A stretch of 34,952 bases of DNA from Truepera sp. bin119. GTDB lineage: Bacteria; Deinococcota; Deinococci; Deinococcales; Trueperaceae. The translations under genes and the position numbers were made by a program. Positions 18,676 through 24,555 of the stretch are shown piece after piece. The notes under the pieces are model-generated. The model was not told the DNA's origin, made no database searches, and worked only from the letters and a program-made list of their open reading frames with translations. Location of the stretch: NCBI GenBank assembly GCA_002239005.1, contig MPNL01000034.1, forward strand, positions 1 to 34,952. The letters are read 5' to 3'. The number at the start of each line of letters is the position of its first letter. The stretch's first letter is position 1.

Positions 18676-18709
18676 TTGAAATGTGACGACCCATAGTTTA
18701 GCATTAGGC
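18676..18709 (+). promoter_or_regulatory. Promoter of the MauG-PhnDCE-type operon, leaderless
   Basis: TTGAAA (18676-18681), a spacer of exactly 17 bp, and TAGCAT (18699-18704) form a near-consensus promoter. The ATG of a 44-codon ORF begins 5 nt after the -10, so the message would start at or just before the start codon. The -10 is covered by the palindromic operator at 18693-18722. Confidence 0.75.
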
Positions 18710-18722
18710 ATGCCTAAACTAT
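18693..18722 (+). promoter_or_regulatory. DtxR/IdeR/MntR-type operator palindrome
   Basis: TTAGGCATGCCTAA (18704-18717) is a perfect 14-bp palindrome with the TTAGG...CCTAA arms known for metal-dependent DtxR-family repressors. It sits inside an outer 9-bp inverted repeat, ATAGTTTAG (18693-18701) with CTAAACTAT (18714-18722). It overlaps the -10 and the start codon, the expected place for repression. A regulator gene is not present in the window, so identity of the binding protein is inferred from the motif. Confidence 0.65.
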
Positions 18723-18844
18723 CTTTTGGGCTGAGCGATTTCATAGGTGGCTATCTCAAGGTCAACTGGATCTTGGACCGATCCGACCACGTCTTGATCG
18801 ACGGACTGACCGCCGACCTCAAGGTCCCGTTCGCGATAGATTAG
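18710..18844 (+). CDS. Leaderless 44-aa microprotein, unrecognised
   Basis: The ATG at 18710 opens a frame of 44 codons, beginning MPKLSFGLSDFIGGYLKVNW and ending ...TADLKVPFAID. I do not recognise it. The start lies 5 nt behind a near-consensus -10 and inside the metal-type palindrome. The stop (18842-18844) is 3 nt before the GTG of the MauG-like gene. That tight spacing suggests translational coupling, since the downstream gene has only a weak AGAAGG sequence of its own. It has mixed hydrophobic and charged residues, no Cys and only one His, and no clear signal peptide. It could be a true small protein or a leader peptide that meters expression. Confidence 0.55.
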   Translation: MPKLSFGLSDFIGGYLKVNWILDRSDHVLIDGLTADLKVPFAID

Positions 18845-18847
18845 AAG

Positions 18848-20800
18848 GTGATCCTGCTCCGCCTTGCCCGTCTGCATCTAGTCAGGTTGCCTGCCCGGCA
18901 GCTATCGGCCGCTGTCTTAGTCTTCACTCTGCTCCTAGCGACGGTCATCGGGGTCTTCGCTCACATCGTTAGGGAAGCTCCCTGGCATCCCGCTGCCGCC
19001 GCCTACCGGCGGGCCCTGTTCTTCCTCGACCTCACACCTGTCGACTGGCAGGCTGTTGCTCGGGAGTACGAGGTGGAGATCGAGGAAGCGGGCTATAGCG
19101 GGAGGAGCGTCCTCAGCCTGCTAGAGGAGGTGGGCAGCCCTCATGTCGAGGGGATTCGTAAGGCGATCGCCGACCGAGACAGCCAGGGCCTCTACGAGGC
19201 CTCGACGCGGGCTATGTCCTATCTCATGCGCTACACCCTGCTGGTGGCGCAGGGCGAGCTCGGTACGCCGGGGAGTGCCTTGAACGATGTCCTCACTGCC
19301 CAGAGCCTCTACCGGGCCTTCGAGCAGGATTACCTGGAGACACTCGCCCCCGAGGAGCACCGGCGACTGGGGCGCGACTGGCTCACACTTGCCAACAGCG
19401 TCGGCAGCGCCGGGCTGGCGGGAGCCGGTGCCGTAGCTGCCGACAGCGAGGCGTTCCTGGCAGCCCGGGCTCGCATAGAGAATTATTTGCTCGAGAACTA
19501 TGAACCCGGCACCTTCAGCCAGCGAGAGCGGTTCGCCCCGGTTCCTGAGACCCTGGTGCTGGCGGGTGGCATTGCTGCCTACCCGGTGGTGCTGCCCCCG
19601 GGGAGTGATCTCAACGATCAGGACCCGCTCCCGCTCCTGCGCCTTAATGTCGAGGCCAAGGGCCACGACGAGGCCGACCTGCCGCTGGTCGTCTACGGCG
19701 ACATGCTGTTTGACTCTCCTAAGATCTTCGGAGATCCCGCCCGGACGCTGGGGATCACCTGTTCGACCTGCCACAATCGCAGCGACATCAATCGCAGAGC
19801 CTTCATACCTGGAGTCAGCCACCAGCCCGGCGCCTTCGACGTGGACGGCTCGTTCTTCAACAACTTCTTCAACGATCGGCGCAGTGACTCGCTCGACATT
19901 CCCAGCCTGCGCGGGTTGCGCTTCACCGGCCCCTACGGGCGCGACGGTCGCTTTGCCAGCCTCCGCGACTTCGTTCGCAACGTCATCGTCAACGAGTTTG
20001 CCGGTCCCGAGCCGACGCCGTTTATGCTCGACGCGCTGGTGGCCTACCTGTTGGAATTCGACTTCCTACCTAACTCGCTCCTAAACCCCGACGGCACGCT
20101 GACCGACTTGGCGTCGGTCGCGGCGCGCCGCGGGGAGCTCATCTTCAACACCCCCTTCGCCGGCCTCAACGGGAACTCGTGCGCGTCGTGCCACCTTCCG
20201 GACGCCGCGTTCAAGGACGGGCAGATTCACGACATCGGTACCGGCCGCGCAGGAAGCTATACCGGGGAACCGGGCACCGAGATCGAGTACGACCGATTCT
20301 TTGAGACCCCCACTCTGCTGAATAGCGCCTTCACCTTCCCCTACATGCACGACGGGTCGCTAGCGACGCTGGACGAGGTCGCGTCCTGGTTTAACGACAC
20401 TCACCAACTAGGGCTTGACGGTGCGCAACTAGCGGATCTAACCGCCTACCTCGAGGCAGTTGGCGGTGCTGACGAACCCTACGAAGTCTTCGACCGGAAG
20501 AACACCCCCTTCAGACTCGCCTGGGCTGAGCTGACCACCTTCGCAACGGCTCTCGACACCATGTTGATCCCCCGCCGGGACAGCTTCCATGCCACCCTCC
20601 TGATCGACACGGTGGCAGCGGACTTCCGTGCCGACGCCAGCGGTCTGGCCGACCTGAGCCAAGCGCCGATGGTGTACGAGGTGGCGGATGCCCTCGGCGA
20701 GGTGAAGGGCGCTATCCTGCGCGACGACTGGGCCGCTGCGGCCCGGCTCTACCGGAGCTATAAGGACCTGGTGGGACGCTACGGACCGCAACTCCGATGA
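18848..20800 (+). CDS. Membrane-anchored di-haem cytochrome c peroxidase / MauG-family protein
   Basis: A 650-residue protein of the bacterial di-haem peroxidase (CCP/MauG) superfamily, exported and anchored by one N-terminal helix (about residues 18-39). A helical region of about 230 residues without recognised domain comes first, then the catalytic part with two haem-binding motifs, C305-x-x-C308-H309 and C445-x-x-C448-H449. FETPTLLNSAFTFPYMHDGSLATLDEV is a family block. A helical tail of about 100 residues follows. Family members reduce peroxide or oxidise a protein partner; MauG and MbnH modify Trp residues of theirs. The GTG at 18848 is 3 nt after the microprotein stop. The PhnD-like gene follows, and the metal-type operator upstream should control both. 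Confidence 0.88.
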   Translation: MILLRLARLHLVRLPARQLSAAVLVFTLLLATVIGVFAHIVREAPWHPAAAAYRRALFFLDLTPVDWQAVAREYEVEIEEAGYSGRSVLSLLEEVGSPHVEGIRKAIADRDSQGLYEASTRAMSYLMRYTLLVAQGELGTPGSALNDVLTAQSLYRAFEQDYLETLAPEEHRRLGRDWLTLANSVGSAGLAGAGAVAADSEAFLAARARIENYLLENYEPGTFSQRERFAPVPETLVLAGGIAAYPVVLPPGSDLNDQDPLPLLRLNVEAKGHDEADLPLVVYGDMLFDSPKIFGDPARTLGITCSTCHNRSDINRRAFIPGVSHQPGAFDVDGSFFNNFFNDRRSDSLDIPSLRGLRFTGPYGRDGRFASLRDFVRNVIVNEFAGPEPTPFMLDALVAYLLEFDFLPNSLLNPDGTLTDLASVAARRGELIFNTPFAGLNGNSCASCHLPDAAFKDGQIHDIGTGRAGSYTGEPGTEIEYDRFFETPTLLNSAFTFPYMHDGSLATLDEVASWFNDTHQLGLDGAQLADLTAYLEAVGGADEPYEVFDRKNTPFRLAWAELTTFATALDTMLIPRRDSFHATLLIDTVAADFRADASGLADLSQAPMVYEVADALGEVKGAILRDDWAAAARLYRSYKDLVGRYGPQLR

Positions 20801-20820
20801 GGTATCGAGAGGACACCATC

Positions 20821-21675
20821 ATGAAGCACCTGCGCACCCTCCTGCTCGCGCTGCTGGGGACCGTCCTGGGGGGGGTCCTGGCACAGCCTACTCTCACACT
20901 CGCCTTCATCCCGCAGGAGAACCCTGAGAAGCTCCTTGGGAGCATCCAGCAGATCACCGGCTACCTTGAGGCGGAACTCGGCATGCCCGTTCGCGGCTTC
21001 GTTTCCCAGGACCACGCTGCCGCCGTCGAGGCGATGCGCAATGGGGAGGCTGACATCTCCTTTATGGGCGGGCTCCCCTACGTCCTGGCCCACGACCAGA
21101 TCGGAGCCCAGGTCATCCTCGGCGAGGTCTATCGCGGTAGTCCCTTCTACCGAGGTCGCATCTTCGTTCGCAAGGATAGTGGTATCACCGGCCTCGAGCA
21201 GCTGCAAGACAGGAGCATCGCCTTCGCAGACCCGCTCTCCGAATCTGGTTATTTGTACCCGCTCGACACCTTCGCGCAAGCCGGCCTTGTCGATCCTGAG
21301 GGTGACCCCACCAGCTTCTTCAGCGACGTTTTCTTTGCTGGGGGGTATCAGCAGGCCATTCAGGCGATGGTCAACGGTTTCGTCGATGCGGCGGGTGTGA
21401 GCCAGTTTGCCGAATTGCTGCTCACCCCCGAACAGCTGGAGCAGGTTACCTGGATTGCGGAGTCCGGCCTGATTCCCTCGCATAGCGTCATCGCCCGCAA
21501 GGATCTCGATCCAGATCTGCTCGAGCGGTTCACACAGGCCATGATGCAGTTGAATGATCCCGAGTATCGGTACCTGCTGCAATATGTCTATAGCCCTGAC
21601 GGCTACGTCCGGGTGGACGACGCAACCTACGATCCCGTCCGGGAGATCGCCCGGAAGTATGGCTATCTCAAATGA
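20821..21675 (+). CDS. PhnD-family periplasmic binding protein of an ABC importer
   Basis: A 284-residue exported binding protein of the phosphate/phosphite/phosphonate (PhnD) family. A cleavable signal peptide MKHLRTLLLALLGTVLGGVLA is followed by TLTLAFIPQENPEKLL, the classic start of the mature domain. GEADISFMGGLPYVLAHDQ, GRIFVRKDSGI, SIAFADPLSESGYLYPLDTF and the GYQQAIQAMVNGFVDAAGV block are typical. An ATG 24 nt earlier overlaps the previous stop, but the one at 20821 has GAGAGG at good distance and gives a clean signal peptide. Many PhnD-like proteins bind ligands other than phosphonate. No phosphonate-degrading genes are near, so the ligand is open. Confidence 0.88.
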   Translation: MKHLRTLLLALLGTVLGGVLAQPTLTLAFIPQENPEKLLGSIQQITGYLEAELGMPVRGFVSQDHAAAVEAMRNGEADISFMGGLPYVLAHDQIGAQVILGEVYRGSPFYRGRIFVRKDSGITGLEQLQDRSIAFADPLSESGYLYPLDTFAQAGLVDPEGDPTSFFSDVFFAGGYQQAIQAMVNGFVDAAGVSQFAELLLTPEQLEQVTWIAESGLIPSHSVIARKDLDPDLLERFTQAMMQLNDPEYRYLLQYVYSPDGYVRVDDATYDPVREIARKYGYLK

Positions 21676-22502
21676 CGCTGACCGGCGTGGCGCAGAGGTC
21701 CCATCCCCGGGTGCCGGTTGATGTAGAGGTCACGGCTGCAGCCCCACGCACCGGGCCTCAGCCGTCTGTAGTGGTGACGCTGAAGGGGCTGACTGCCGGC
21801 TACGTCCGTAGTAGCTTCAGCCTCCAGCTTCCCGCGCTCCGGATCGTCCGGGGGGAACGCGTCGCCCTTGTCGGCCCTAGTGGCTCCGGTAAGACGACCC
21901 TACTCCGGGTCGTCAACGGACGCGTCTCCATCGAGCAAGGAGAGCTGGAACTGTTCGGCTGTCCGGTCACGGCCGCAACCCTTCGCGGTCGATCATTGCG
22001 GCGGCGTATCGGTTTTATCTTTCAGACGTTTCAGCTAGTAGGGCGGGCTACGGTCTTCGAGAATATCCTGTGGGGCCGCCTTAGCTGGCGGTCGACCCTC
22101 CCAAGCCTCTTCTCCTCCTTCAGCCGCGAGGACCGGTTGCAGACCGAAGAGGTGATACGCGAGGTCGGTCTGGAGGCGCAGGCGCTGCAGCGCGTGAGCG
22201 ACCTCTCCGGGGGGCAGCAACAGCGGGTGGGGATCGCCCGGGCACTGGTCCAGGAACCCGACTTGATCCTCGCTGACGAGCCCGTTAGCAATCTCGATCC
22301 CGAGACCGCCAACGAGATCATGCGGCTTCTTGAGCGAGCCTGCAACAGTCGGCACGTCACCCTGATGATGAGCCTTCACCAACCCGACTTGGCCCGCCGT
22401 CACGCCGGCCGCATCATCACGCTGGAAGGGGGTCGGCTCGTCGACGACCAGCCGAACCCCGAGGCGCTCGTCCCCAGGACCGGGGACACCCTTCACAGGT
22501 AG
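21672..22502 (+). CDS. PhnC-type ABC importer ATPase
   Basis: An ATPase of 276 residues with an unusual 35-residue N-terminal extension before the fold. Walker A is GPSGSGKTT, the Q-loop [22 protein letters not shown] matches PhnC, the signature is [15 protein letters not shown], Walker [14 protein letters not shown] and the switch SLHQPDLA. The start overlaps the stop of the PhnD-like gene by 4 nt (ATGA). It supplies energy to the PhnE-type permease that follows. Confidence 0.9.
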
Positions 22503-22535
22503 CCGAGCCTGAGGTGCTCATAGCCACTGAGAATC

Positions 22536-23330
22536 ATGAAATCTAGCCTGGCACAGCGGTTGAAGGCCCACCACAGGCAGCGGCGGGTTCAGACCGCGGT
22601 GTTCCTCGTCCTGTTCGCGGTGCTGTTCCTGCTGGCGTTGCCGGGTGCCGAGTTGGACTTCAGCAAGTTCGCTGACAGCCTGCCGCGGATGGCCGACTTC
22701 CTAGGCCGGATGGCCCCGCCGGACATGAGCGTGATGACGACCGTCCTCACCTCGACCCTTGAGACCTTGCAGATCGCTTTCGTAGGGACGTTCCTCAGCG
22801 TGGTGCTGTCATTCCCATTAGCGCTCATGGCCGCTACCAACTTGGCCCCCGCTTGGCTCTCCCAACCCACCCGCTGGCTGCTGGGGGCGATTCGGGCGGT
22901 ACCCCTGATCCTACTGGCGCTGTTCTTCGTCAGCACCGTTGGCCTGGGCCCCTTCCCCGGGGTACTGGCGATCACGGTGCACTCGGTAGGGATGCTCGGG
23001 AAGTTCTACGCTGAAGCCTTCGAGAACGCCGACCCTGGGGTGCTGGAGGCGCTCGACAGCGCCGGGGCGACATTGCTTCAACGGCTTCGGTTCGGCATCT
23101 TCACACAGGTCGCCCCCGATCTGGTCCGCGATACCCTGTTCCGCCTCGAGCTGAACTTCCGCGAGTCGCTCATCCTGGGGCTGGTAGGGGCTGGCGGGAT
23201 CGGCTTCTACATCCAGTTGTACATTCGGGCCTTCCAATACGAACGAGTCGCCACCCTCACCATCACACTGCTGGTCATCGTCATCATCGTCGAACTGACC
23301 AGTACGCGTTTACGGCAGATGTTGCGGTAA
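22536..23330 (+). CDS. PhnE-type ABC importer permease
   Basis: An inner-membrane permease of 264 residues with about six helices and the PhnE-type coupling loop. ALDSAGATLLQRLRFGIFTQVAPDLVRDTLFRLELNFRESLILGLVGAGGIGFYI is the conserved stretch. FADSLPRMADFLGRMAPPDMSV before the second helix is also family-like. It begins 33 nt after the ATPase stop and completes a minimal D-C-E importer with one permease gene, which presumably acts as a homodimer. The operon seems to end here; no T-run hairpin was found after it. Confidence 0.9.
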   Translation: MKSSLAQRLKAHHRQRRVQTAVFLVLFAVLFLLALPGAELDFSKFADSLPRMADFLGRMAPPDMSVMTTVLTSTLETLQIAFVGTFLSVVLSFPLALMAATNLAPAWLSQPTRWLLGAIRAVPLILLALFFVSTVGLGPFPGVLAITVHSVGMLGKFYAEAFENADPGVLEALDSAGATLLQRLRFGIFTQVAPDLVRDTLFRLELNFRESLILGLVGAGGIGFYIQLYIRAFQYERVATLTITLLVIVIIVELTSTRLRQMLR

Positions 23331-23466: not shown

Positions 23467-23560
23467 GCCCGGCCAAGGATCCGGTGCTTCCCCCTGATTC
23501 GGTCCGGGCGTGACCTGATACCGAAGCATGTGTTGAGAGATGTGGGAAGGTGGGATAGTG

Positions 23561-24555
23561 ATGGACTTGCAGCCGTTTCGTGTCTCAAATGATGCCCTTG
23601 GCGATCCGGTAGAGTTGCGCCAGCGCTTCGCCGATGAAGGGTACCTGTTCCTGCGTAAGTTCTTTGACCGGGACAAACTGTGGCGACTGCGCCTCGAGAT
23701 TCTCGAAGTGATTGAGGCGGGCGGTTGGATCGAGCCACCAGACTTGCGGATGGACGTGTGGACCCAGCCAAGGCGTGTACCGAAGGTGAGCAGGCGTACA
23801 CCGACGTGTACTCCCACGTCCAGAAGCTGCGCTCGATGCACGCTTCCGGACACTGGCCTGAGGTAGTCGATATCGTAGGAGACATCATCGACGGCCCGGT
23901 GATGCCGCACCCGATGAAGATCACGCGGCTCTGGTTTCCCCAGTACACCATCCATACCACGCCGTTCCATCAGGACTTCGTTCAGTTTCAGAGCAACTTG
24001 GAGGTGGTCACGGTGTGGACCCCGCTGGGAGACTGTCCCCTCGAGCTCGGTCCACTCGCGGTGGTCGAAGGTTCGCACCGGGCGGGGGAGGTGATCGACC
24101 ACCACTTCTCTCTCGGTGCCGGTGGCAAAAAAGTGGAGCGGCCCGAGGAGTACGGTACACCCCGTTGCAGCGACTTCGAAGTTGGCGACACCCTCATCTT
24201 CGGCTGCCTGATGGTGCATGGCGTGCTACCCAACCTCACTGTGGATCGGCTGCGCGTGTCGCTGGATAACCGTTACCAGCGCCAGGGACTGCCGGTATCC
24301 GAGCACGTGCTTAATCCCCACGTTTCGGATCTCAGTTGGGAGATGGTCTACGAGGATTGGCCCGACCCCGATGAATTGAAGTACTACTGGAACCGGATCG
24401 GGTTCGACGTGGTCAAACATGACACCAGATTTGACGAGCGGGCGTTTGAAGAGGTGTTGCAGTTGGCGAGTGAAGACGACGAACACGCCATTTTGAGCCT
24501 GAAACGGTTGGTTGCAAACCGTTCGGGCACCGAAGCGGTTGAGAGGGCGCGGTAA
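23561..24555 (+). pseudogene. Phytanoyl-CoA dioxygenase (PhyH) family gene, frameshifted near 23755
   Basis: An Fe(II)/2-oxoglutarate oxygenase of about 330 residues, broken into two frames. The first starts at ATG 23561 (GGAAGG site 10 nt upstream) and reads through DEGYLFLRKFFDRDKLWRLR to GGWIEPPDLRMD. The second resumes with DPAKACTEGEQAYTDVYSHVQ and runs to the end. The iron site looks complete: His-x-Asp in TPFHQDFVQF and the distal His in HGVLPNLT with Arg in RLRVSLDNRYQ. A net loss of one base near 23753-23760 explains the break. It may be a young pseudogene or a sequence error. The substrate is unknown. Confidence 0.85.

Follow-up and report, generated by a model that had tools for sequence, protein, structure and literature searches.

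What does a di-haem enzyme do in an operon whose other genes look like a phosphonate transporter? The question is raised by a 34,952-nucleotide stretch of Truepera sp. bin119 (contig MPNL01000034.1; here called the window), in which a tight four-gene operon spans positions 18848-23330 on the plus strand. Open reading frames together with Pfam and NCBIfam searches identify a predicted exported di-haem MauG/CCP protein (18848-20800, 650 aa), a PhnD-type binding protein (20797-21675, 292 aa), a PhnC-type ATPase (21672-22502, 276 aa) and a PhnE-type permease (22536-23330, 264 aa), assigned in that order to the Pfam families CCP_MauG, Phosphonate-bd, ABC_tran and BPD_transp_1. Overlaps of 4 bp (ATGA) join genes 1 and 2 and genes 2 and 3. 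A sequence-only reading of the window had already drawn this operon, and all four frames, their strand and their families agree with it. Database labels would render the set as "cytochrome peroxidase plus phosphonate transporter". Judged from the comparisons below, the four genes most likely encode a system, equipped with a redox enzyme of its own, that imports manganese or a similar metal. A literature search of partial coverage returned no earlier description of such a system and no papers that connect MntR to PhnD or MauG within such an operon.

The operon recurs as a unit beyond the window. A sister genome (G002) has the identical gene order, with 67% identity in the di-haem gene; the operon is present in 2 of the 111 genomes searched within the window's phylum and in many Alphaproteobacteria, frequently on plasmids. 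Because the operon and its promoter box (below) both recur in the sister genome and in Alphaproteobacteria, their combination is more than chance. Matches covering at least 80% of the di-haem gene occur in 43 plasmid records at 50–56% identity. PhnD at 60–66% identity occurs in 42 plasmid records, every one of them among those 43, and in the 43rd, which has no such PhnD, the di-haem match lies at the record edge. The next PhnD drops to 35% identity. By sequence, this co-occurrence and this gap therefore mark window-type PhnD as a discrete subfamily found together with the di-haem enzyme. The sequence-only reading had made its case depend on the two genes being conserved neighbours, as they are in the sister genome and in Alphaproteobacteria.

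This pairing bears on whether the di-haem protein and the importer work together. Bosea (L031) carries all four genes, and in a Methylobacterium MAG (L030) the di-haem gene lies close to the end of a contig. Within the Bosea order, a full-length di-haem copy occurs in 7 of 397 genomes; five of the six copies fetched belong to a whole operon, and one (L171) lacks PhnDCE. Were the di-haem protein a mere peroxide remover, induced by manganese shortage and co-transcribed with an unrelated importer, its CCP_MauG family match would be accounted for, and manganese shortage and oxidative stress are indeed linked. We consider this unlikely. Strict pairing with one PhnD subfamily (L171 being the one orphan), overlapping genes and a large private N-terminal domain suggest a shared task instead. 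The orphan full-length gene (L171:5371-8694) adjoins a gene whose product looks, by eye, like a TAXI-type solute-binding protein.

The window's copy may have arrived by transfer. In a midpoint-rooted tree with some weak forks, the window's pair falls among alphaproteobacterial copies, which suggests that the operon was transferred into the window's lineage. No relatives were found in viral contigs. A 46-residue PhnD remnant (52% identity) on NZ_CP102411.1 (87787-87924; Ruegeria sp. YS9) is possibly a decayed operon copy. Two plasmids of near-equal length with identical scores are filed under Dysgonomonadaceae (CP070278.1) and Martelella lutilitoris (NZ_CP066788.1); the former label may be wrong. 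Eight plasmid copies (L110, L146, L148-L153) lie within metal islands, surrounded by SCO, PCu(A)C, DsbA/B, ZIP, CDF, P-type ATPase, lnt and lspA genes.

A conserved operator of metal type lies at the operon promoter. The sigma-70-like promoter, TTGAAA-17-TAGCAT (18676-18704, plus strand), is a consensus match only, in a layout shared by 13 other loci. Directly behind it, the palindrome core TTAGGCATGCCTAA (18704-18717) forms part of an MntR/DtxR-type operator, TAGTTTAGCA-TTAGGCATGCCTAA-ACTA (18694-18721, assigned to neither strand). The box TTAGNCNNNNCTAA occurs exactly once per locus in 14 of 14 loci and nowhere else in the 234 kb searched, a descriptive count and not an independent test because the pattern was selected after some of the sites had been viewed. 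In all 14 loci it sits just behind the -35/-10 hexamers of the di-haem/PhnDCE operon. The metal-type control element of the sequence-only reading thus takes shape as an MntR/DtxR-type operator common to 14 loci. No known RNA was found at the promoter, the sole RNA matches being tRNAs far upstream; four consecutive tRNA genes occupy positions 210-681 on the minus strand.

Together with the neighbouring genes, the operator points to manganese more specifically than the sequence-only reading had it. Twelve loci (the 10 plasmid loci examined and the genomes L168 and L170) carry mntR divergently from the operon, so that the two marks of an MntR regulon, a conserved operator and an MntR gene, appear as a box in 14 of 14 loci and an adjacent divergent mntR in 12 of 14. 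The Roseovarius MntR scores above its NCBIfam equivalog cut-off (196.8 versus 153). Neither the window operon nor the sister operon directly adjoins an mntR; a single DtxR/MntR gene is present in the window genome, on a different contig, and the sister genome has one about 4 kb from the operon. Other loci without mntR carry different boxes in place of the MntR type: TTGCRAATNNNNYGCAA in L030, L031 and L169, and TTGCAATTGACA-N5-TTGCAA in L166 and L167. We infer that both are Mur/Fur boxes, and TTGCRAATNNNNYGCAA also stands upstream of mntH in L030. Beside the di-haem locus, both Bosea and the Methylobacterium MAG carry mntH together with a gene of the Fur family, the Bosea mntH exceeding the cut-off of the Mn(2+) NRAMP model (641.6 versus 430). 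No Nramp was found in the window genome or in most family genomes checked, which makes its absence uninformative, and the window genome encodes further metal-binding proteins of the ZnuA family.

By alignment, the binding pocket of PhnD is not that of a phosphonate binder. Te_PtxB contacts phosphite through Y55, Y100, S130-T131-S132 and H160, with Y208 as a cap (Bisson et al., PMC5700983); the equivalents in the window protein are H73, Y118, S148-E149-S150, Y184 and H229. His73 (codon at 21013-21015, plus strand) thus replaces Tyr55, Glu149 within SESG (21241-21243, plus strand) replaces Thr131 of the STS motif, His229 (21481-21483, plus strand) replaces the cap Tyr208, and Tyr184 takes the position of H160, while Tyr118 and both serines, Ser148 and Ser150, are retained. 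The swap Y55H, T131E, H160Y, Y208H is invariant in 19 of 19 PhnDs and absent from all 10 controls (nine plasmid PhnDs and Te_PtxB). Met90, which maps near the pocket, is likewise invariant in the 19, as are H73, E149, Y184 and H229, and recurs in one of the 10 controls. The three new ligand candidates, His73, Glu149 and His229, are placed by their correspondence to contact or cap positions in PtxB, the window protein's own structure model being poor (mean pLDDT 54, and 40 for the di-haem protein).

These replacements argue for a cation, because a carboxylate stands where Thr binds the oxyanion and two histidines are new. Of the substrates that the sequence-only reading had offered for redox-linked import, metal or metal complex gains from both operator and pocket, and its departure from phosphonate is upheld by the four-residue swap; oxyanion is not supported, the oxyanion contacts being lost and a carboxylate gained. 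That the operon is simply a phosphonate, phosphite or phosphate importer whose di-haem neighbour is accidental is very improbable in our judgement. The PhnD, PhnC and PhnE family labels speak for it, as does PhnE, which exceeds its NCBIfam phosphonate equivalog cut-off (277 versus 216.7); PhnD (164.6 versus 261.1) and PhnC (229 versus 266.1) fall under theirs. Set against it are the invariantly replaced pocket residues, manganese-type regulation, and the absence of the C-P lyase gene PhnJ from three of the four genomes checked (the window genome, the sister genome and G1063).

We therefore turn to which cation is bound. From sequence evidence it is likely that the substrate is a metal, and somewhat less so that the metal is manganese, a choice resting on regulation and not on the pocket, whose two tyrosines would be compatible with Fe(III) or Mn(III) as well. 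The operon might instead import a different transition metal, be it copper, iron or zinc, that the MntR-like protein senses or cross-reacts with. The SCO, PCu(A)C, ZIP and P-type ATPase genes of the plasmid islands would fit this, as would Met90 and the Fur-family neighbour in Bosea and the Methylobacterium MAG, whose best scores are against Fur-type models; yet the box is conserved with mntR in 12 loci, mntH is adjacent in two, and the 19 aligned PhnDs share no invariant Cys. Although such a substrate seems improbable overall, copper is possible because plasmid copies sit amid copper and zinc genes and the invariant Met90 nears the pocket. Iron and zinc are possible too, with manganese our best guess.

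The di-haem protein belongs to a family that does not fix its role. Its haem motifs, CSTCH (residues 305-309; 19760-19774, plus strand) and CASCH (residues 445-449; 20180-20194, plus strand), are invariant in 15 homologues, and its CCP_MauG (PF03150) match clears the gathering cut-off (44.5 versus 25.6 bits). NCBIfam models register a weak resemblance to MbnH, MauG and hydrazine synthase gamma, far below the cut-offs for MbnH (TIGR04039, 56 versus 363 bits) and MauG (TIGR03791, 45 versus 444). As far as sequence goes, its likeness to both protein-modifying (MauG/MbnH) and peroxide-reducing (CCP) enzymes is compatible with more than one function. The protein appears to be exported: alphaproteobacterial homologues start, by eye, with ordinary Sec signal peptides, and the window's N-terminus allows the same interpretation (VIGVFA|HIV), which leaves the membrane anchor proposed in the sequence-only reading unsupported. 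That reading's large unassigned N-terminal domain stands. Residues 40-235 (18965-19552, plus strand) are helical and of no known family by Pfam and profile comparison, and in none of the 15 homologues did the N-terminal 200 or so residues match a Pfam family convincingly.

Could the di-haem protein mature its neighbour? As a maturase it would oxidise PhnD Tyr or His, not Trp, into a metal site, and PhnDCE would then import the metal. Strict di-haem/PhnD pairing with a 4-bp gene overlap, weak similarity to MbnH and MauG, and several invariant Tyr and His among the 19 PhnDs are consistent with this. In MauG and MbnH, however, which set the precedent, Trp is what becomes modified, and no Trp is invariant in the 19 aligned PhnDs; the scores far under both cut-offs weigh the same way. 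A maturase role thus seems doubtful, and the Trp-directed modification of PhnD suggested earlier by analogy with MbnH/MbnP is unlikely because no Trp is invariant.

We weakly favour metal redox for the di-haem protein because its shorter haem-core relatives pair with EfeO-like genes. These relatives (about 450-470 aa, without the N-terminal domain; L147:7168-9326, L143:6925-9336, L144:7453-9701 and L145:7508-9825, from Bradyrhizobium sp. 186 and two other genomes) lie directly behind an EfeO/imelysin-type gene and form a second di-haem/metal-protein pair. The same neighbourhood raised the idea of an imelysin (M75)/EfeO origin for the N-terminal domain, which was rejected (hhalign probability at most 0.4, no Pfam match).

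The operon would then work as a metal-starvation importer descended from phosphonate/phosphite transporters of the PhnDCE type. While manganese suffices, MntR carrying the metal would occupy the palindrome that follows the -10 hexamer and block transcription; scarcity would release the block and switch the operon on. The PhnD-like protein would hold the metal in the former phosphite cleft through His73, Glu149 and His229, with Tyr118 and Tyr184 close by, and PhnC and PhnE would carry it inward. The exported di-haem protein may act beside the binding protein by altering the metal's oxidation state or chelation, a role modelled on the haem peroxidase EfeB beside EfeO/EfeU. Leaving that step aside, sequence evidence makes an MntR-regulated ABC importer of manganese, or of a manganese complex, probable; PhnE above its phosphonate cut-off and plasmid copies amid copper and zinc genes count against it, as do the lack of an mntR right next to the window and sister operons and the ZnuA-family metal-binding proteins encoded elsewhere in the window genome. 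A redox step on the metal is tentative and argued by analogy. Equally tentative is redox-coupled manganese acquisition as a whole, in which the di-haem enzyme might convert manganese outside the cell, for instance Mn(III) complexes into Mn(II) or the other way round, and pass the ion to the rebuilt PhnD-type site.

Known systems each share part of this design. PhnDCE, PtxB and HtxB, importers of phosphonate, phosphite and hypophosphite, have the gene set, the protein families, Tyr118 and Ser148/Ser150 in common with it; here Tyr55, Thr131, His160 and the cap Tyr208 give way to His, Glu, Tyr and His, and a di-haem partner and metal-type operator are added. MauG and MbnH (with MbnP) are likewise exported, carry two c-type haems and are encoded beside their partners, but the window protein has a private N-domain of about 200 residues and its partner, in which no Trp is invariant, is part of an ABC importer. 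EfeUOB iron uptake also places a periplasmic haem enzyme, a DyP peroxidase, beside a metal-binding protein and importer; here an ABC importer replaces EfeU, a di-haem enzyme replaces the peroxidase, and the N-domain has no sequence link to imelysin/EfeO. MntABC/SitABCD-type importers and MntH share with the window system MntR- or Fur/Mur-type regulation and, as its predicted role, manganese import, whereas the ABC types use ZnuA-family (cluster A-I) binding proteins in place of a PhnD type. AioX and ArrX, which belong to an arsenic context, show the PhnD-type fold near non-phosphonate ligands (PDB matches), but are distantly similar and lie outside any MntR operon.

To our knowledge, no metal importer of the phosphonate-transporter class and none with a dedicated di-haem partner has been described before, so that such a redox-coupled system, which marine bacteria would carry on plasmids, would be the first of both kinds. 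If the manganese reading is correct, manganese ABC importers would gain a second structural class, and possibly a redox step, in the manganese uptake of roseobacters, Roseibium, Martelella and Bosea. Many records call these genes a phosphonate transporter, an annotation that may mislead phosphorus-cycle surveys. Elsewhere in the window, a phytanoyl-CoA dioxygenase-like gene (23540-24555) is apparently split into two frames of 108 and 276 aa, with the PhyH match confined to the second.
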